Origin: Planctomycetota bacterium
GTDB taxonomy: Bacteria > Planctomycetota > Planctomycetia > Pirellulales > UBA1268
Assembly: GCA_016872555.1 (NCBI GenBank)
Contig: VGZO01000001.1
Location: 1-64,000, forward strand
Length of the DNA: 64,000 nt
Direction of reading: 5' to 3'
Positions 4,777-19,675 of the stretch are shown here, in pieces. A program made the translations under genes and the position numbers. The first letter of the stretch is position 1. Every line of letters starts with the position of its first letter. The notes beneath the pieces are model-generated. The model was not told the DNA's origin and did not search any database. It worked only from the letters and a program-made list of their open reading frames with translations.

Positions 4777-5916
4777 TCACACCGTCGTGGCCACGAGGGC
4801 TGCATACACGCGGCGCATCTCATTCTTCGTGAACCGCGGGGCAAGGAGCCGCATCACGGCGGCCTTGTCGGCTGGAAACGCCAGCCCCTCTGCCTTGATC
4901 GCCTCGTAGGCGGCGACGACCCGCCCGCGGAAGTCGAGCTCCGCACGCACAGCCGCGATGCATTCCTCGACATGCGGCCGGAAGGCATCGATGTCTTCCG
5001 GCGGATACTCCTCGAGCAAGAGCGGCCGCACGGTGTCGAAAGAAAGCACGTCAACCGTCTCGAGCGCGTTCCAGCAGGTGGCGAGCACGGCCTGCTTGTT
5101 GATGCCGGTCGCCCAGTGGATCTCCTCGATGCTTTCGGGCTTGCACTTCCAGAGGCTCACGAGGCCCGACGGCTCCGTCACACACCACACGGCCCCCTCC
5201 GTGCCGGAAAGCTGCTCGTCGGAGACGCGCACGTTGCGGGCCTCGAGCTCCGCGCGGAGTTTCTGGAAGCGGCCCACCGGATCCTCCTCGGCCCGCAACT
5301 CGGCCACGAGCGGGGCCACCGGCACGCTGCCGAGGTCGAGCGCGAAGGGGGCGACGAGCCGGCCCGTCGCCGGATCGACGCCAAAAAGCACGGCCATGGC
5401 CAGCGGCTCGTCGTAGGCGATCAGGTGCGGGTTGCGGCCGCCGTAGAGCTCGAAGGAGATTGAGCAGTCGTTGCGGTCCGGCAGTGCCGCGGCCTCCGGA
5501 TGCCGCTCGAGCAGCTCCCGCCACAGGTCGAGAAAGCCGCCGAACGTGCCGTTGCGAAGCACTGGATGCAGCCGGAGCTTGAATGTCGTCCGCACGATGC
5601 CGGCGGCGTCGCGGTAGCGGTAGGCCAGCACGTTGGTGCCGTCGAGCTTCTCGTAGACATGCGCCCGGGCGATCGGCGGAAACCGAAACCGGCCGTCGCG
5701 GTCGAACGGATACCGCAGCTTCGGCGTGGCATGAATCAGTTGCGGGCAGGGCTCTTCACCCACGCGGGCGATCACGATCGCCCCGTAGCGGTGGTCTGTC
5801 TTGTGGCAGAGAAAGCCCTCGAGCGGCAGGCCGCCGTGAAACGGGTCGGCCACGGCGAAGGGCTGCAGCAGCCCCGGCTGCACGCCGAGCATCTCCGCTG
5901 CCTGGTCGATCGTCAT
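4777..5916 (-). CDS. T4 RNA ligase (Rnl)-like nucleotidyltransferase
   Basis: A 379-residue member of the covalent nucleotidyltransferase superfamily. The nucleotidyl-lysine motif I is K90-LDG (HVYEKLDGTNVLAYRY). Motif III-like SISFELYGG is at 152-160, motif IV EGAVW at 240-244 and motif V LWKCKP at 255-260. The spacing and the FELYG block favour RNA ligases over DNA ligases. It would use ATP to join or repair RNA ends, working through a lysyl-AMP intermediate. A C-terminal region of about 120 residues follows motif V and is probably a specificity domain. There is no polynucleotide kinase or RtcA/RtcB gene beside it. The start is ATG at 5916. Confidence 0.8.
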   Translation of the reverse strand: MTIDQAAEMLGVQPGLLQPFAVADPFHGGLPLEGFLCHKTDHRYGAIVIARVGEEPCPQLIHATPKLRYPFDRDGRFRFPPIARAHVYEKLDGTNVLAYRYRDAAGIVRTTFKLRLHPVLRNGTFGGFLDLWRELLERHPEAAALPDRNDCSISFELYGGRNPHLIAYDEPLAMAVLFGVDPATGRLVAPFALDLGSVPVAPLVAELRAEEDPVGRFQKLRAELEARNVRVSDEQLSGTEGAVWCVTEPSGLVSLWKCKPESIEEIHWATGINKQAVLATCWNALETVDVLSFDTVRPLLLEEYPPEDIDAFRPHVEECIAAVRAELDFRGRVVAAYEAIKAEGLAFPADKAAVMRLLAPRFTKNEMRRVYAALVATTV

Positions 5917-6026: not shown

Positions 6027-6392
6027 ATGCCCGTTCTGCTCCAGACCACGCTGCTGCTGATCTGCTCGAACGTGTTCATGACGTTCGCGTGGTACGCCCA
6101 TCTCAAGGACTTGAGCGGACGGCCGTGGTTCATCGCGGCGCTCGTGAGCTGGGGCGTGGCGCTCGCCGAATACCTGCTCCAGGTGCCGGCCAACCGGATC
6201 GGCTACACCACGCTGAACCTCGGGCAGCTGAAGATCTTGCAGGAGGTGATCGCGCTGGCCGTGTTCGTGCCTTTCGCGGTGCTCTCCATGAAGCAGCCGC
6301 TGAGGCTCAACTACCTGTGGGCTGCACTGTGCATCTGCGCGGCGGTGTATTTCGTGTTTCAGGATTCACCGAAATCGGCTGTCGGGCCGTGA
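6027..6392 (+). CDS. DMT-superfamily membrane protein (DUF486)
   Basis: A 121-residue protein with four hydrophobic helices matching the DUF486 family of the drug/metabolite transporter superfamily: TFAWYAHLKDL, WGVALAEYLLQVPANRIGY, LKILQEVIALAVFVPFA, and LWAALCICAAVYFVF. The LQVPANRIGY stretch is characteristic. It is an inner-membrane protein with no known substrate. The 294 bases after it hold no gene I can support. Confidence 0.8.
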   Translation: MPVLLQTTLLLICSNVFMTFAWYAHLKDLSGRPWFIAALVSWGVALAEYLLQVPANRIGYTTLNLGQLKILQEVIALAVFVPFAVLSMKQPLRLNYLWAALCICAAVYFVFQDSPKSAVGP

Positions 6393-6686
6393 CGCTCCGA
6401 TCGCCCCACGGCCATCCTGCCGCCGCCGGAGCCCGGCCTGCGTTCAACTGGCGAGCCCTGGCAGACCCTGTCGCCGTGCTCATCACGCCGGACGTGCAAC
6501 ACGTCGTGCCCGCGCTGCCGACGGCAGCGCCGGCCCTGATCGCGGGCGTGAGGGCGCTGGAGAGCTTCTGAAAACGGAGACACCGTTCTTTTTCGCGGCC
6601 CGGTGCTCATCCTGATTGTGCTAGAACGATTCCTTGCTACCGAGCCTGTCTGGCCTCGATGTGAGGAAAGGAGCCACGTACACGCC

Positions 6687-7334
6687 GTGCGGTCGGTCGG
6701 ACTCCTCATCGCGACGTTCGTCGCCTTGCTCGCCGGGGCTGTGCTCGTTCGCAGTCGTACGGCCCCGCGGCCGATGGAGTACGCCGCGGCCTCTCGGCCG
6801 AGCAGGCATGCCGCGCCGCCCGAAGACGTGGCGGCGCTCAATACGTCGGCTCCCCGGCGTGTTCCCGCGTCGCTCGAACGCGTGGTGCTTCCCGACAACC
6901 GGCCCGCAGTGATCCTGTTTCTCAAGGCCGATTGCGGCTGCAGTGCCGAGTTTGCCAGGATGCTCACCACGCTCGCCCCGCACCTCGCGCCGCGGGCGTC
7001 GTGTCTGGCGGTAATCGAGGCGCAAGACGGCGAGGCCGAGCCATTCCTCGAGTCGACGGGCCTGGCCGTGCCGCACGTGATCCAGTCCGATGGCAGCCTG
7101 GCAGCGGCCTGGGGAGTGACCAAGGCGGGCTGCGTGGCGCTCGTGCGCCCGGATGGCTCCGTCGAGACGGTGTGGCCTGGCATTTCGCGGCAGGGGTTTC
7201 GCGACCTCGCCGGCCGGCTTGGCGATGCGAATCTCTTTCCCGCAGAATCGCTCGCCGTTCTTCCCGGTCCAACCACGGCCGGCTGCCCGCTCCTTTCGGC
7301 TTCGATCGCCCCCTCCCCTGGAATCGCCCGATGA
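6687..7334 (+). CDS. Membrane-anchored thioredoxin-fold protein with CxC motif
   Basis: A 215-residue protein. I chose GTG 6687 because it begins directly with a membrane anchor (SVGLLIATFVALLAGAVLV) and lies 13 bases after GGAG; an ATG at 6603 would add an unlikely leader. The extracytoplasmic part has a thioredoxin-like fold: PAVILFLKADCGCSAEF with C83-G-C85 in the active-site place, then predicted strands and VALVRPDGSV. CxC instead of CxxC suggests disulfide reduction or copper handling rather than classical thioredoxin activity. Its stop overlaps the start of the copper-propeller gene, so the two are translationally coupled; I infer a maturation role. Confidence 0.7.
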   Translation: MRSVGLLIATFVALLAGAVLVRSRTAPRPMEYAAASRPSRHAAPPEDVAALNTSAPRRVPASLERVVLPDNRPAVILFLKADCGCSAEFARMLTTLAPHLAPRASCLAVIEAQDGEAEPFLESTGLAVPHVIQSDGSLAAAWGVTKAGCVALVRPDGSVETVWPGISRQGFRDLAGRLGDANLFPAESLAVLPGPTTAGCPLLSASIAPSPGIAR

Positions 7335-8929
7335 ACGACCTGTTCGCCGCCAAACTCGCCCGTCGCAACTTGTTTCGCTACGGAGCCGCTGGTCTCGCCG
7401 GCGCAGGCGCGTTCGCCGCCAGCCGTCTGCTGGCTGGTCGGCCGGCCGCGGCGGCTGCAGCCGACAGCCCGCTCACCGAGGATGCGCGCTACGAGGGAAT
7501 CCGCGAGCAACTCGGCCGGTTCATCCTGCTCACTCCCCAGAAGCTCGGCGGCGGGACACACGCCGTCGACTTGGCCGCGCAGAAGACGCTCGCCTGGATC
7601 TCGTATTGGAACTACGGCGACAGCTGCCCCATCTCCCATCACCTGGCGGCGTTTCCCGCCGACTCGGGCGATCCCTACAAGGGCTTCGAGTTCGTCAACA
7701 CGACCCAGGGGGGCGACAACATCCTGATGTATGGCCTCCCGACGCGGATCCGCGAGAACGGCATGCTCGGGCAGGCCGGCCAGGGCAATCACATCTACCG
7801 CGTGGGCTACGACGGCAAGACGGGCCAGATGGACCTCCTCGAAGATATCGCCGAGACGACCGGCATCGGCCTGGGCGTGCACACCGTGCCCTTCCCGGAC
7901 GGCACCGGCTTCGCCTGTGGCGATGGCCAGAAGGACATCGTGGCCTTCTTCTCGCGGGCCCGCGGCCGCGAGAAGACGACGGTCCTCAACGCCTTCCGCG
8001 CCGACTGGCAGCCGAAGGCCGACGACCTCGGCTCCACGTGGACCAAGGGGGGCCGGATCGTGCTCACGCGGCTCGCGCCCAGCCTCGACCTCGGCCGCTA
8101 CGACCTCGAGGGCACCACCGGCAACAAGATCAATTTCGAGATGGCCCCGATGGCCGAACTGCGGGTGGAGCGCGGCCAGATCCCCGGTAACGATCCGCGC
8201 GGGCTCACCGGGCTCGACTTCTGCCTCCACGATCCGGCCGGCCGCTATTCGCTCATGGGGCTGCGGATGTGCGGCGGCGGGTTCATCGTCGACCGCAACA
8301 CCTTCGAGCCGATCTGCTTCATCCAGGCCAACGAGGGCGTGCAGGACAACTTCCCGCTCACGAAGGTCTCGAGCTCACCAGACACGTGGGTCGTCGACCT
8401 GTCGGCCGTGGGCAACCCGATCCATGAGTCGGGTTTCCATCCCGCCGGTAACTACCTCTGCATGATGAACAACCTCCGCGCGAACAACGTGGCGGTGTTC
8501 GACACCGCCAACGCGGATCCACGGAAGTGGAAGCGGGTGACGCTCGTCAAGGATCCGGAATGGCAGGGGGAATTCCCGTCGCCGTTTCATCTCAACTACT
8601 CGATCGACGGCACGAAGTGCTTCTTCACGATCCTACGGCCGAAGCCGATGAAGTCGGACGTGGTCGTGGTCGACACGAAGACCTGGAAGATCATCAAGAA
8701 GTTTCGCAACGTCGGCGTCGACGCCCAGACCACCTGCACCACCTACGACGGCAAGTATGCGATCGTCATCTTCTCCGGGTTCCAACGGATGGAGGCGGGG
8801 GCGTTCGTGTTTCGGCAGGACACGCTCGAGCAGGTCGGCTACATGCCCAATTTCGGCGGGCATCATGACTGCGTGATCGTGCCGTCGAAGGTGGAAGAGT
8901 TGAAATACAGCCGAAGCTGCACAGTATGA
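7331..8929 (+). CDS. Tat-exported NosZ/thiocyanate dehydrogenase-like copper propeller protein
   Basis: A 532-residue protein with a Tat signal (ARRNLFRYGAAGLAGAG, residues 10-26) and a body matching the seven-bladed propeller of nitrous oxide reductase. By-eye matches to the NosZ copper-site histidines are H103-H104 (SHHLAAFP), H184 (GVHTVPFPDGTGF), H365 (PIHESGFHPAGNYL), H420 (SPFHLNYS) and H511-H512 (GGHHDCVI, like NosZ EPHDC). The blade-six NosZ histidine appears to be Gln or Thr here (DAQTTCTTYDGK). The C-terminal cupredoxin CuA domain of NosZ is absent. Thiocyanate dehydrogenases share the CuA-less propeller and a multicopper site, so a periplasmic copper oxidoreductase is likely, but the substrate is unknown. 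It sits second in a tightly overlapped four-gene operon. Confidence 0.7.
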   Translation: MNDLFAAKLARRNLFRYGAAGLAGAGAFAASRLLAGRPAAAAAADSPLTEDARYEGIREQLGRFILLTPQKLGGGTHAVDLAAQKTLAWISYWNYGDSCPISHHLAAFPADSGDPYKGFEFVNTTQGGDNILMYGLPTRIRENGMLGQAGQGNHIYRVGYDGKTGQMDLLEDIAETTGIGLGVHTVPFPDGTGFACGDGQKDIVAFFSRARGREKTTVLNAFRADWQPKADDLGSTWTKGGRIVLTRLAPSLDLGRYDLEGTTGNKINFEMAPMAELRVERGQIPGNDPRGLTGLDFCLHDPAGRYSLMGLRMCGGGFIVDRNTFEPICFIQANEGVQDNFPLTKVSSSPDTWVVDLSAVGNPIHESGFHPAGNYLCMMNNLRANNVAVFDTANADPRKWKRVTLVKDPEWQGEFPSPFHLNYSIDGTKCFFTILRPKPMKSDVVVVDTKTWKIIKKFRNVGVDAQTTCTTYDGKYAIVIFSGFQRMEAGAFVFRQDTLEQVGYMPNFGGHHDCVIVPSKVEELKYSRSCTV

Positions 8930-10161
8930 CCCCGGGCGGCAGGTCGTCGTCTCTTCCGGTGCTCGCCCGGATGGCGGTGATCGACGTCACCCGCCGCCCG
9001 TGGCGGCTCGGCTTCCTCGCGGCTGGCATCGCGCTGGCGGGGGCGGCGGCGTTCGGGGCGCTCGTGTTTCATACGGTGATCGGTCGGTCCCTCGACCGGA
9101 GCCTCGCACGGCTGGGCGCGGATGCCGCCATCCTGCCAGCCGGCATCACGGCCAACCTCACTCCCGTCCTCCTCTCGGTCGAACCGTCGGCGGCGACGAT
9201 CGCTCCGGAGGCGATTCATCGGCTCTCGGCCTCGCCGGTGGTGGCAGCCGTGGCCCGGCAGCGCACGCTCAAACTGGCCGACGCCAGTGGCCACCTGCCG
9301 ATCGACGTCGTCGTGTTCGATCCGGCGACCGACCTCACCGTGCTGCCGTGGGTGGAGGAGCGGCTCGAGCGACCATTCGGAGCCGGCGACGTGCTCGTCG
9401 GCGGGCGGCGGCCGGAGGCGGTGGGCGAGCAGATCGTCGTGCAAGGTGTGGAGCTCGTCGTGCATGGCCGACTCGGCCTCACCGGTGCCGGGCCGTTTGA
9501 GCGATCGTGGTTTTTCACGGCCGACACCGCCCGACGGCTCGCCGCTGCAAACGTCGTCACGGCCGATGGCGAACGCGTGGCGGAGGAGCCGCTCGAGTCG
9601 CCGAGCGGTGCGATGCTGCGGCTCGTGGCGGGACGAGGCCCCGAGGAACTGCGGTTCGCTCTGGCGTCGGTGCCGGGTGTGCAGCTCGTCGCCGGCAGCG
9701 GCAGCCAGATCGCGGTCCGCCAGGCCGTCAAGACACTCGCCGACACGTCGTTCGTCATGCTCCTGGTGGCACTCGCGGCCCCGGTGGTGCTCGTGGGCGT
9801 GGCGTATACCGGCATGCTCGCCGAGCGGCGGAGGGAGCTCGGCACGATGCTGGCGCTGGGTGTCCCCCGTGCCGCCATCATGGCCACAGTGGCGCTCGAG
9901 GCGGCGATCGCGGCCGTCGCGGGGTCGCTTGCCGGAGTCGTGCTGGCTGCCGCGGCGATCGTCGGATTCATGCGGACAGTCGGGTTCGCACTCGAGCAGC
10001 GGGCGATCGCGCTGGCGATGCCGGGGGTTGGGGAATTGTGTCTGTACGCGCTGGCGAGCGGCGTGCTCGTCGCCGCGACGGCGATCATGGGCGCCGCGAT
10101 CGCTGCCTGGCTGGCGGCGGGACGGCAGCCCTGGACGCTCCTGCGGGGCGACACGGCATGA
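8926..10161 (+). CDS. FtsX/MacB-type ABC transporter permease
   Basis: A 411-residue permease with the FtsX layout. One N-terminal helix (LGFLAAGIALAGAAAFGALVF) is followed by an extracytoplasmic domain of about 220 residues, then three C-terminal helices (about 275-298, 325-350, 375-400) with the typical cytoplasmic loop ERRRELGTMLALGVPRAAI. It overlaps the copper-propeller gene and the ATPase gene as ATGA. Such permeases move lipoproteins or act as mechanotransmitters rather than classical channels. I infer that it works with the downstream ATPase in assembly or export linked to the copper protein. Confidence 0.85.
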   Translation: MTPGGRSSSLPVLARMAVIDVTRRPWRLGFLAAGIALAGAAAFGALVFHTVIGRSLDRSLARLGADAAILPAGITANLTPVLLSVEPSAATIAPEAIHRLSASPVVAAVARQRTLKLADASGHLPIDVVVFDPATDLTVLPWVEERLERPFGAGDVLVGGRRPEAVGEQIVVQGVELVVHGRLGLTGAGPFERSWFFTADTARRLAAANVVTADGERVAEEPLESPSGAMLRLVAGRGPEELRFALASVPGVQLVAGSGSQIAVRQAVKTLADTSFVMLLVALAAPVVLVGVAYTGMLAERRRELGTMLALGVPRAAIMATVALEAAIAAVAGSLAGVVLAAAAIVGFMRTVGFALEQRAIALAMPGVGELCLYALASGVLVAATAIMGAAIAAWLAAGRQPWTLLRGDTA

Positions 10162-11585
10162 GCGATCCGCCGATCATCGAGGCGCGGCATGCCAGCCTCA
10201 CCTATCACACTCGCCGCGGACCGATTACCGCGGTCGACGACGTGAGTCTCGCGATCGCGCCGGGAGAATGCGTGGCGATCCTGGGACGATCGGGTTCGGG
10301 AAAGTCGACACTCCTGGCCCTGCTCGGCGGGCTCTGCGCACCGACGGCAGGCGAGGTGTGTTTCGCCGGCCGGCCATGGCGATCACGCACGCAGCGCGAG
10401 ACGAGCGGCGTGCGGGCGAGCGACATCGGCCTCCTCTTGCAGGATGGCGCACTCCTGCCGGGACTGCGGGCTCTCGACAACGTGCTCCTTCCCGCCGCGC
10501 TCGCCGGCAAGCCGCGCGGCTCGCTGGCGACGCGGGCCGAGGAGCTGCTCGAGCTCGTCGGCCTAGCCGATCGATGGGACGCCTATCCAGCGGAATTGTC
10601 GGGCGGGCAACAGCGCCGCGTGGCCCTCGCCCGGGCCTTGGCCGCGGAGCCTGCCGTGATCCTCGCCGATGAGCCAACCGGCGACCTCGACGCGCTGGCG
10701 GCGGCGGAGATCACGGCCATGCTCGCGCGTGTGCGAGCCGACCGTTCCCCGGCGATCGTGCTCGTGACGCACGATCCGGCCCTGGCGGCGATCGCTGACC
10801 GCCGGCTGTGGATGGAACGCGGCAGATGCACGGAGGTGACCGACGCCGCGACACCGCCCCTCCCGCCTGCGGCAGTTTTTCCGGTGCTGCGGGAACTGAC
10901 CGGCGCGGCGGTGTTCGAGCCGCCCCCGGCCGACCTTGCGCCCCTCCGACCGGCGATCAGCGCGGGGAGCCTTGCCCGGTCGTGGCTGCCGTTCGTCGGT
11001 GGGCTCGCAGTCGCGGCGGCGGTCGTCGCCCTCGTCGACGGGCTGATCGCCGGAAAACAGGAGGTGGTCGTTCAAACCGCGCGGGCACAGCGGCGGCTCG
11101 CCGAGGAGATGGCGATGCAGGATCTGCGGGCCGATATCGACGACGTGGTCGTCGCTGCCGATGGCACAGCCACCGTGACGGCGTTTCTCCAAAACTTCCG
11201 CCCGGAGCATCCGCTCCACGTGCTCGGCCCGGCGCTCGAGGTGGGCATCCAACGCGATGGCCGCTGGGAGACTGTTTCCAGCGAACTGGAAAAGCCTCCC
11301 ACCACCATCCGCACGATCGGGAGCGACAAGACGCTCGTGCCGCTCACGTTCTCGGTGCCGGAGGGGACGTACGACGAGCTTCTGCGGGGATACCTCCACG
11401 TGCGGATCGGCGCGGCGCTGGTGGTGAGCGATCGGCCCGACGGCACGGGCGACCTCTTCGAGCGGCTTGACGCCTACTACATCTATCTCCGCGATCCGCG
11501 GCGCACGGAAAACGAGATCCGCCGCGCAAACGGCTGGGGCGACAAGGCGACCGTGCCGCTGTGGATCGCGATGCCGTCGCACTGA
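10158..11585 (+). CDS. ABC ATPase fused to a transmembrane helix and extracytoplasmic domain
   Basis: A 475-residue fusion. Residues 1-225 are a LolD/MacB-type ATPase with Walker A GRSGSGKST (43-51), signature LSGGQ (147-151), Walker B VILADEP (167-173) and the switch histidine H205. A proline-rich linker leads to one helix near 277-298 (FVGGLAVAAAVVALVDGLIA). About 175 residues outside follow, rich in predicted strands (TVTAFLQNF, HVRIGAALVV), that I cannot assign. MacB carries its helices in a similar order but with an FtsX domain; here the permease is separate, so this is an unusual split. It is the last gene of the operon and ends 17 bases from a convergent kinase gene. Confidence 0.8.
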   Translation: MSDPPIIEARHASLTYHTRRGPITAVDDVSLAIAPGECVAILGRSGSGKSTLLALLGGLCAPTAGEVCFAGRPWRSRTQRETSGVRASDIGLLLQDGALLPGLRALDNVLLPAALAGKPRGSLATRAEELLELVGLADRWDAYPAELSGGQQRRVALARALAAEPAVILADEPTGDLDALAAAEITAMLARVRADRSPAIVLVTHDPALAAIADRRLWMERGRCTEVTDAATPPLPPAAVFPVLRELTGAAVFEPPPADLAPLRPAISAGSLARSWLPFVGGLAVAAAVVALVDGLIAGKQEVVVQTARAQRRLAEEMAMQDLRADIDDVVVAADGTATVTAFLQNFRPEHPLHVLGPALEVGIQRDGRWETVSSELEKPPTTIRTIGSDKTLVPLTFSVPEGTYDELLRGYLHVRIGAALVVSDRPDGTGDLFERLDAYYIYLRDPRRTENEIRRANGWGDKATVPLWIAMPSH

Positions 11586-17993: not shown

Positions 17994-19675
17994 AGGCGTT
18001 CGCCGACCTCTACTGGCAGCTCGACGGCACGACGAGCATCACGGAGAAGGTGGCGGCACTGCGCGACTATTTCCGCTCCGCCCCCGCCGCCGACGCCGCC
18101 TGCGCGCTGGCCGTCCTCGCCGGCGGGAGGCAGTCGCGCGCCGTGCCGCTGCCGCTTTTGCGCCGCGAGGCGGCGGCGGCCGCGGCGATCCCCCTCTGGC
18201 TCCTCGAAGAGTGCTACGCCCAGACCGGCGACCTCGCCGAGACGCTGGCCCTCGTCCTCCCCCCTGCCGACGAGATCGCCGTGCCCGCCGCTGCCGCGTT
18301 GGTGCCGGCCGATCTCGGCCTTGCCGCCCACGTCGAGCGCCTCCGCGATCTCCGCAACGAGAAGGACGAGGAGGCGATCGGCGCGTTCCTCCGCGCCACG
18401 TGGCGCGTGCTCGCCCCCCGGGAGCGGATCGTGTGGCACAAGCTGCTCACCGGCGGCTGCCGCGTCGGCGTCTCGCGGACGCTCGTCGCCCGGGCGCTGG
18501 CCGAGGTCGCCGGCATCGAGCCGGCGGCGATGATGACGCGCCTCGTCGGCCGCGGCGACGAGGGGGCGGAGGCGTTTTCCCGGTTGATCTCCCCCGTCGC
18601 CAGCGCCGCCGACGACCTCCGCCCCTATCCGTTCTTCCTCGCCGCGGCGCTCGACGTGCCGGCCGCCGGCCTCGGTGCGGTCGGCGACTGGCAGGCCGAA
18701 TGGAAGTGGGACGGGATCCGCGCGCAGGTCGTCGTCCGTAGCGCGGGGGTCGCCCTCTGGACGCGCGGCGAGGATCTGGCGACCGAGGCCTTCCCCGAGA
18801 TCGCCACCGCCGCGGCCGGCCTCCCGCCGGGCACGGTCCTCGACGGCGAGCTGCTCGCCGCCCGCGGCACGCGCCTCCTCCCCTTCGCCACGCTCCAGCG
18901 CCGCAGTGGCCGCAAACGCGTCACCAAGGGGCTCCTCGCCGAGGTCCCCTGCGTGTTCGTCGCCTACGATCTCGTCGAGGAAGGGGGAGACGATCTTCGC
19001 GCGCTACCGCTCGGCGAGAGGCGCGCGAGGCTCGAGCGGCTCCTCGGAGGCGCCGGGGCGACCGATGCACCGTTCTTGCCAGAGGGCGACGAGGCCGTCG
19101 CGACCGGGCGGCTGTTCCTCTCGCCGCTCCTGGCGGCCCCCGACTGGGCCGGCCGCGCCGCGGCGCGGGCCCTCGCGCGCGACCGGGGCGTCGAGGGGCT
19201 GATCCTCAAGCGCCGGGCCTCCCCCTACGGCAGCGGGCGGACGCGCGGCGACTGGTGGAAGTGGAAGATCGAGCCGCTCGAGATCGACGCCGTCCTGCTC
19301 TACGCCCAGGCCGGCCACGGGCGCCGCGCCGGCCTCCACACCGACTACACCCTCGGCGTCTGGGAGGGGGAGGAGCTCGTCACCGTCGCCAAGGCCTACT
19401 CGGGGCTGTCGGACGCCGAGATCGTCGAGGTCGACCGGATCGTCCGCGCCACGACGCGGCAGCGCCACGGCCCGGTGCGGATCGTCGAGCCGTCGCTCGT
19501 CTTCCAGATCGCCTTCGAGGGGGTGGCGCCGTCGCAGCGCCACAAGGCCAAGCTCGCCCTCCGCTTCCCGCGGATCGTCCGCTGGCGGCGCGACAAGGGG
19601 ATCGCCGACGCCGGCCGGCTCGACGACCTGCGCCGGCTGTGCCGGACCGCGGCCCCCACCGAGGCCGTCCCATGA
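17990..19675 (+). CDS. ATP-dependent DNA ligase of the damage-response cluster
   Basis: A 561-residue ligase. An alpha-helical N-terminal domain (about 1-200) precedes the catalytic core, where K239 in EWKWDGIRAQ is the adenylated lysine. Motif III-like GTVLDGELLA, FVAYDLVEE, EGLILKRRASPYGSG and the motif V lysines WWKWKIEP follow, then an OB-fold domain. It seals nicked DNA with ATP. It belongs to the ligase family found with the exonuclease, helicase and PdeM genes, separate from the NAD-dependent replicative ligase. Confidence 0.9.
   Translation: MKAFADLYWQLDGTTSITEKVAALRDYFRSAPAADAACALAVLAGGRQSRAVPLPLLRREAAAAAAIPLWLLEECYAQTGDLAETLALVLPPADEIAVPAAAALVPADLGLAAHVERLRDLRNEKDEEAIGAFLRATWRVLAPRERIVWHKLLTGGCRVGVSRTLVARALAEVAGIEPAAMMTRLVGRGDEGAEAFSRLISPVASAADDLRPYPFFLAAALDVPAAGLGAVGDWQAEWKWDGIRAQVVVRSAGVALWTRGEDLATEAFPEIATAAAGLPPGTVLDGELLAARGTRLLPFATLQRRSGRKRVTKGLLAEVPCVFVAYDLVEEGGDDLRALPLGERRARLERLLGGAGATDAPFLPEGDEAVATGRLFLSPLLAAPDWAGRAAARALARDRGVEGLILKRRASPYGSGRTRGDWWKWKIEPLEIDAVLLYAQAGHGRRAGLHTDYTLGVWEGEELVTVAKAYSGLSDAEIVEVDRIVRATTRQRHGPVRIVEPSLVFQIAFEGVAPSQRHKAKLALRFPRIVRWRRDKGIADAGRLDDLRRLCRTAAPTEAVP

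Follow-up and report, generated by a model that had tools for sequence, protein, structure and literature searches.

What might a planctomycete do with a relative of thiocyanate dehydrogenase (TcDH) in which one active-site histidine has become glutamine? The question is raised by a four-gene operon in a 64,000-nucleotide stretch of contig VGZO01000001.1 from a lake planctomycete (hereafter, the window), which encodes a CxC redoxin, an exported propeller enzyme, an FtsX-type permease and an ATP-binding cassette (ABC) ATPase with a fused C-terminal domain (Table 1). With moderate confidence, we explain the operon product as a periplasmic multicopper oxidoreductase of a separate Gln482 branch of the TcDH superfamily, having its own maturation kit and a changed or retuned chemistry. 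The trinuclear copper site of TcDH is unusual, and mutants have supplied part of the argument for the enzyme's mechanism. A natural branch that is Gln throughout, with twelve other residues unchanging, is ready-made for testing the role of residue 482 and, perhaps, whether the copper cluster has a second chemistry.

Fold and Family of the Enzyme

The sole real phmmer matches of the window enzyme in the PDB are TcDHs, namely pmTcDH of Pelomicrobium methylotrophicum (8Q9X; E = 1e-133, 45% identity) and tpTcDH of Thioalkalivibrio paradoxus (5F75; E = 1e-120, 41% identity), with which it shares full-length homology, fold and export by the twin-arginine translocation (Tat) pathway. By inspection, the Tat signal consists of the twin-Arg N-terminus ARRNLFR and a following hydrophobic stretch. 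The AlphaFold2 model, based on 32 homologues, has a mean predicted local distance difference test (pLDDT) score of 84.7, low values being confined to the signal region, one loop and the final residues. The top 20 PDB matches of this model in Foldseek are all TcDH chains, with template modeling (TM) scores of 0.93–0.95, normalised by target length, and root-mean-square deviations of 1.8–2.0. An earlier sequence-only reading of this DNA had proposed Tat export and a propeller fold, and had named structure prediction as the check on the latter; both proposals are borne out. The same reading was right about the operon, the export and the kinship with TcDH, the closest relative, but its joint label of a TcDH/NosZ-like enzyme is too loose on the NosZ side, as set out below. 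The enzyme is thus a member of the TcDH superfamily and has no close likeness to NosZ.

The Active Site and Its Glutamine

The published active site of TcDH comprises Lys103, His135, His136, Gln156, His206, Glu288, Asp314, His381, His437, His482, His528, Asp529 and Arg544 (PMC6504805, Fig. 4). Twelve of these thirteen residues are kept in the window enzyme, and the thirteenth, His482, is Gln466. Among 63 aligned rows, some of them nearly identical, 53 have Gln and 10 have His at position 482, and the other twelve positions are invariant wherever present. Both crystallised TcDHs are among the His rows, the rest of which are eight gammaproteobacterial Thiohalobacter-type proteins (33–38% identity); the Gln rows come from Planctomycetota, Verrucomicrobiota, Melainabacteria/cyanobacteria and relatives, Myxococcota, Methylococcaceae, Alphaproteobacteria and one Methylocella tundrae plasmid. 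A 64th protein, from a single-contig 2.5-Mb genome of the cyanobacterial phylum (locus L091, 6479–10705), likewise has Gln482, the order enzyme-FtsX-ABC and an MPPH end. Most copper-site histidines are therefore kept, as had been read from the sequence, but one of them is fixed as Gln across the clade. The electron-exit residue of TcDH, Tyr164 in tpTcDH numbering (PMC9456337), is found in 52 of the 53 Gln rows, the window enzyme included; Thr169 is not kept in the latter. The pKa values of the TcDH pH profile have been ascribed to His and Lys residues that are essential, the individual residues being unspecified (PMC9456337).

The same change has been made in the laboratory. The PDB holds the mutants H482Q of tpTcDH (6SJI) and H447Q of pmTcDH (8YU5/8YU6), and 8YU5 is the single best Foldseek match of the window enzyme model. 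The key residue is identical, but it is engineered in the mutants, whereas the window Gln is natural and fixed, and is accompanied by clade-specific residues such as Ser102 before His103, Asn123, Met271 and Gly294. A His at position 109 (His77 of the window enzyme) was gained in 50 of the 53 Gln rows; because the others lack it, it was rejected as a general compensation for Gln482.

The ratio of nonsynonymous to synonymous substitution (dN/dS) of the window enzyme is 0.05–0.12, showing purifying selection, and pseudogene status of this copy was rejected on that basis. An improbable alternative is a non-catalytic protein derived from TcDH that binds or senses copper: one strictly conserved catalytic-site residue has been lost and dedicated ABC and redoxin genes are present, but a pseudoenzyme would have no need of the other catalytic-site residues, Lys103 included, or of the electron-exit Tyr, all of which are invariant or nearly so.

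The CuZ site of NosZ contains seven histidines (H132, H133, H181, H323, H378, H429 and H490 in the enzyme MnN2OR), and metalation was lost on replacing six of the seven (PMC11573801). By order and spacing, without an alignment, His482 would correspond to the sixth of them, and the window enzyme reproduces six of the seven, the sixth being Gln. This similar spacing in a propeller hub is what speaks for a nitrous oxide reductase-like enzyme without CuA (NosZ positions from PMC11573801), an explanation that we regard as very improbable, given that NosZ (1fwx) ranks only 41st in Foldseek with a TM score of about 0.39, no NosZ entry of the PDB is matched by the enzyme family profile up to E = 1 and the Pfam scan of the window enzyme finds no NosZ family. 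Kinship with NosZ was rejected on these three grounds. As the sequence-only reading had claimed, a CuA domain is absent from the window enzyme by sequence, Pfam and Foldseek, and no nosDFYL genes adjoin it in the neighbourhood. Its claim of a NosZ-like HDC end holds for the motif, an HHDC at residues 511–514, but not for the position, which is not at the very end. What the operon shares with NosZ and NosDFY is a His-rich propeller hub and an ABC system beside the enzyme, an analogy of function only: there is no sequence relation, and the ABC genes are non-homologous.

Distribution of the Gln Clade

The tree of the enzyme family was built with column 482 omitted and no root was inferred. Fifty Gln rows form one group (support 100/95), tpTcDH and pmTcDH form a pair (100/100), and the eight Thiohalobacter-type rows lie far off. 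The Gln-type protein of Tautonia sociabilis (L050) has no resolved place near the base of the tree and sits on a long branch; thus, one or two His/Gln changes are needed and the number of Gln origins is unsettled. At this locus (L050, 74–1675), a multicopper-oxidase-like protein is encoded a few kb upstream of the lone Gln-type gene.

As seeds, the homologue scan used eight-residue pieces of the window protein that do not span position 482, and it therefore favours near relatives. In less-biased profile surveys, Gln482 was found everywhere outside the TcDH-bearing Gammaproteobacteria. The enzyme gene occurs in 2 of 392 planctomycete genomes and, in a separate count, in 3 of about 36 genomes of the window's own family. 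The verrucomicrobial (1 of 289), cyanobacterial (2 of 292) and myxobacterial (1 of 189) counts each include the genome used as centre. This rare and patchy spread is consistent with horizontal transfer and loss.

Cyanase (PF02560) and SoxY (PF13501) have no match in the genome of the window. Among 15 genomes with a Gln-type module, two have cyanase and three, all proteobacterial, have SoxY, as compared with SoxY in both of the His-type genomes scanned. Either trait in a host is a supporting, not a strictly defining, criterion for TcDH. These counts bear on the explanation that the enzyme is a genuine TcDH which tolerates Gln482 and converts thiocyanate to cyanate and sulfur for detoxification, not for energy. 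The twelve kept residues, the electron-exit Tyr and the shared fold agree with it, as do the ABC genes, permease/ATPase genes being reported from Thioalkalivibrio clusters too (PMC5328954), and detoxification needs neither Sox nor cyanase. Nevertheless, His482 is invariant in both TcDH lineages tied to growth on thiocyanate, these being further apart from each other (33–38%) than the window enzyme is from tpTcDH and pmTcDH (41–45%), and cyanase is absent in 13 of the 15 hosts and SoxY in 12. We consider a genuine TcDH rather unlikely. A further difference from tpTcDH and pmTcDH is that the hosts are not sulfur oxidisers.

A Conserved ABC Module Beside the Enzyme

Module loci were those with at least 3.5 kb of sequence downstream of the enzyme, L034 and L075 being one genome and counted once. 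Using profiles seeded with the window genes, the FtsX permease, the ATPase and the C-terminal domain of the ATPase were found adjoining the enzyme in 37 of 41 loci across several phyla, and chance clustering was rejected on this ground. The exceptions are Methylotetracoccus, a Methylococcaceae metagenome-assembled genome (MAG; L035), Tautonia (L050) and L053, and one alphaproteobacterial MAG (L048) has its ABC genes upstream of the enzyme. An all-against-all comparison of neighbourhoods revealed no other cross-phylum neighbour, whether cytochrome, cupredoxin or Cop/Cus/Nos. The four-gene order that was to be sought elsewhere thus recurs in many phyla as enzyme-FtsX-ATPase, but the redoxin changes its position: planctomycetes and the myxobacterium have it upstream, Verrucomicrobia 3' of the ATPase gene.

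Several of these loci have peculiarities of their own. In Methylotetracoccus oryzae (L063/L075, 9127–10767), a single in-frame TGA breaks the Gln-type gene, and FtsX/ABC genes are missing from its surroundings; this is either decay or a sequencing error, the two not being separable. In L053 (5712–6443), only the first 216 or so residues of the enzyme are left, joined directly to the terminal portion of the ABC C-terminal domain, as if a single deletion had removed the operon's middle part or the assembly were faulty. The module of Methylocella tundrae lies on plasmid NZ_LR536451.1 (L069, 14533–19261), where it is annotated as hypothetical protein, ABC permease, ABC ATPase and hypothetical protein, and the periplasmic domain is encoded on its own, as a 293-aa protein that also ends in MPPH (18380–19261). 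This named methanotroph isolate with its plasmid-borne module lends itself well to genetic work.

TcDH genes with neighbouring ABC genes have been described before: in Thioalkalivibrio, two permease/ATPase pairs come after the TcDH gene, together with a membrane-anchored protein (G372_RS0106345). All of these are induced on thiocyanate, and the permeases have a single helix at the N-terminus and three at the C-terminus (PMC5328954, PMC5744179). This helix layout is that of FtsX, and the likeness of the window pair to the Thioalkalivibrio pairs is one of published topology (PMC5744179). A search through two gammaproteobacterial orders did not reach Thioalkalivibrio loci. In contrast to these clusters, the window operon has a single ABC pair whose periplasmic domain is fused, where Thioalkalivibrio has two pairs plus separate genes, and it adds the CxC redoxin. 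In the literature, we did not find a description of the invariance of the ABC genes in the Gln branch, the fused domain or the MPxH end.

The pair itself, predicted from the sequence as an FtsX permease and a fused ABC ATPase and confirmed with Pfam, consists of an FtsX-domain permease and a LolD-like ATPase, the components that mark type VII ABC systems such as MacB, LolCDE and FtsEX. Unlike in these, the ATPase is fused to a transmembrane segment and an undescribed periplasmic domain ending in MPxH. For this domain, neither Pfam nor the PDB gave a sequence relative, and no convincing fold or family was found; Tyr-x-His-x-Arg is invariant in its 27 aligned members, as are His414, Met472 and His475. 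The exposed invariant Met and His at the C-terminus suggest handling of Cu(I).

The MacB/LolC-like family performs mechanotransmission and lipoprotein release, not import. It is from this that an alternative for the accessory genes draws its strength, in which the ABC pair has nothing to do with copper and serves to export or extract a lipid, a lipoprotein or the sulfur product of the enzyme. The specific coupling to the enzyme across phyla and the three invariant His and Met residues argue against such a role, and we find it doubtful.

The CxC Redoxin

The first gene encodes a membrane-anchored protein whose thioredoxin fold is close to those of ResA and DsbF. The CxC motif noticed earlier was confirmed: C83 and C85 stand in place of CxxC and, together with a third cysteine, C200, are invariant in 12. 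The eight His-type rows have a thioredoxin-like gene upstream, a response regulator and an RND/Cus-type pump, a neighbourhood that matches the published Thiohalobacter/Guyparkeria cluster. That cluster likewise places a thioredoxin-like gene directly upstream of TcDH, and the window redoxin matches by profile the cysteine-poor protein of the Thiohalobacter type (probability 96%). The differences are that the redoxin there lacks the cysteines, all 13 active-site residues including His482 are present, and Cus genes and a sigma-54 regulator replace FtsX/ABC.

Proposed Function

In the explanation we prefer, a copper oxidoreductase of the Gln482 branch, the enzyme would hold its copper in the propeller hub, where Gln would alter one of the sites, and may oxidise a small sulfur or nitrogen (pseudohalide-like) substrate, with the electrons passing Lys71 and Tyr134 on the exit route suggested for TcDH. 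The chemistry of the enzyme would differ from that of His-type TcDH or be retuned. The FtsX/ATPase pair, with its Met/His-tailed periplasmic domain, could load or activate the copper site, acting as NosDFY does for NosZ without being homologous. The redoxin might maintain the proper state of thiols or copper, or take up the sulfur product, a role suggested for the thioredoxin-like gene that precedes Thiohalobacter TcDH. Four points weigh against this explanation. We infer the function of the Gln-type enzyme throughout, and likewise the copper role of the ABC system and the MPxH tail; Foldseek of the periplasmic domain returned no copper protein; L035 and L050 have the enzyme without ABC genes nearby; and Gln is able to ligate copper, so that ordinary TcDH activity may persist. 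A broader version is tentative: a widespread, undescribed class of Gln-type copper oxidoreductases outside the sulfur oxidisers, with a differently liganded cluster, a new substrate and a new ABC maturation in which the MPxH tail hands copper to the hub. The coupling of ABC genes to the enzyme in many phyla offers a handle on how copper clusters of propeller hubs are loaded without Nos or Cus genes.

Operon Layout and Neighboring Genes

Inspection of open reading frames confirmed the ATGA overlaps claimed for all three junctions of the four genes.

Table 1. Features of the operon in the window (positions from the first nucleotide).
Feature	Position	Strand	Basis or remark
Redoxin gene; membrane-anchored thioredoxin-fold protein (ResA/DsbF/AhpC-TSA-like)	6687 (GTG)–7334	+	Earlier GTG start at 6603 possible
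Enzyme gene; Tat-exported TcDH-superfamily seven-bladed propeller, 532 aa	7331–8929	+	PDB phmmer, AlphaFold2, Foldseek
His103-His104, counterparts of tpTcDH His135-His136	7637–7642	+	Alignment
Codon CAG of Gln466, aligned to tpTcDH His482/pmTcDH His447	8726–8728	+	Alignment
His512-Asp513 of HHDC, counterparts of tpTcDH His528-Asp529	8864–8869	+	Alignment
FtsX permease gene; MacB/LolC/FtsX-type (type VII) ABC permease	8926–10161	+	Pfam FtsX 2.4e-8; profile MacB 7e-10, LolC, LolE
ABC ATPase gene with fused C-terminal domain	10158–11585	+	
LolD/MacB-like ABC ATPase domain	10158–10862	+	Pfam
Predicted periplasmic beta-sandwich domain after transmembrane segment, 180 residues	11043–11585	+	
Invariant C-terminal Met-Pro-x-His-COOH and stop	11571–11585	+	27/27 aligned; also L042, L069, L081, L091

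The genome is planctomycete-like, as had been supposed, with a size of 4.5 Mb and a completeness of 98%, and holds the enzyme in single copy. Two flanking genes seemingly lie outside the operon: upstream, that of a DUF486 DMT-like protein ends at 6392, and downstream, a sensor kinase gene from 11603 faces the operon. A short way upstream of the operon, on the opposite strand (4777–5916), a 379-aa protein has a weak match to the RNA ligase family.

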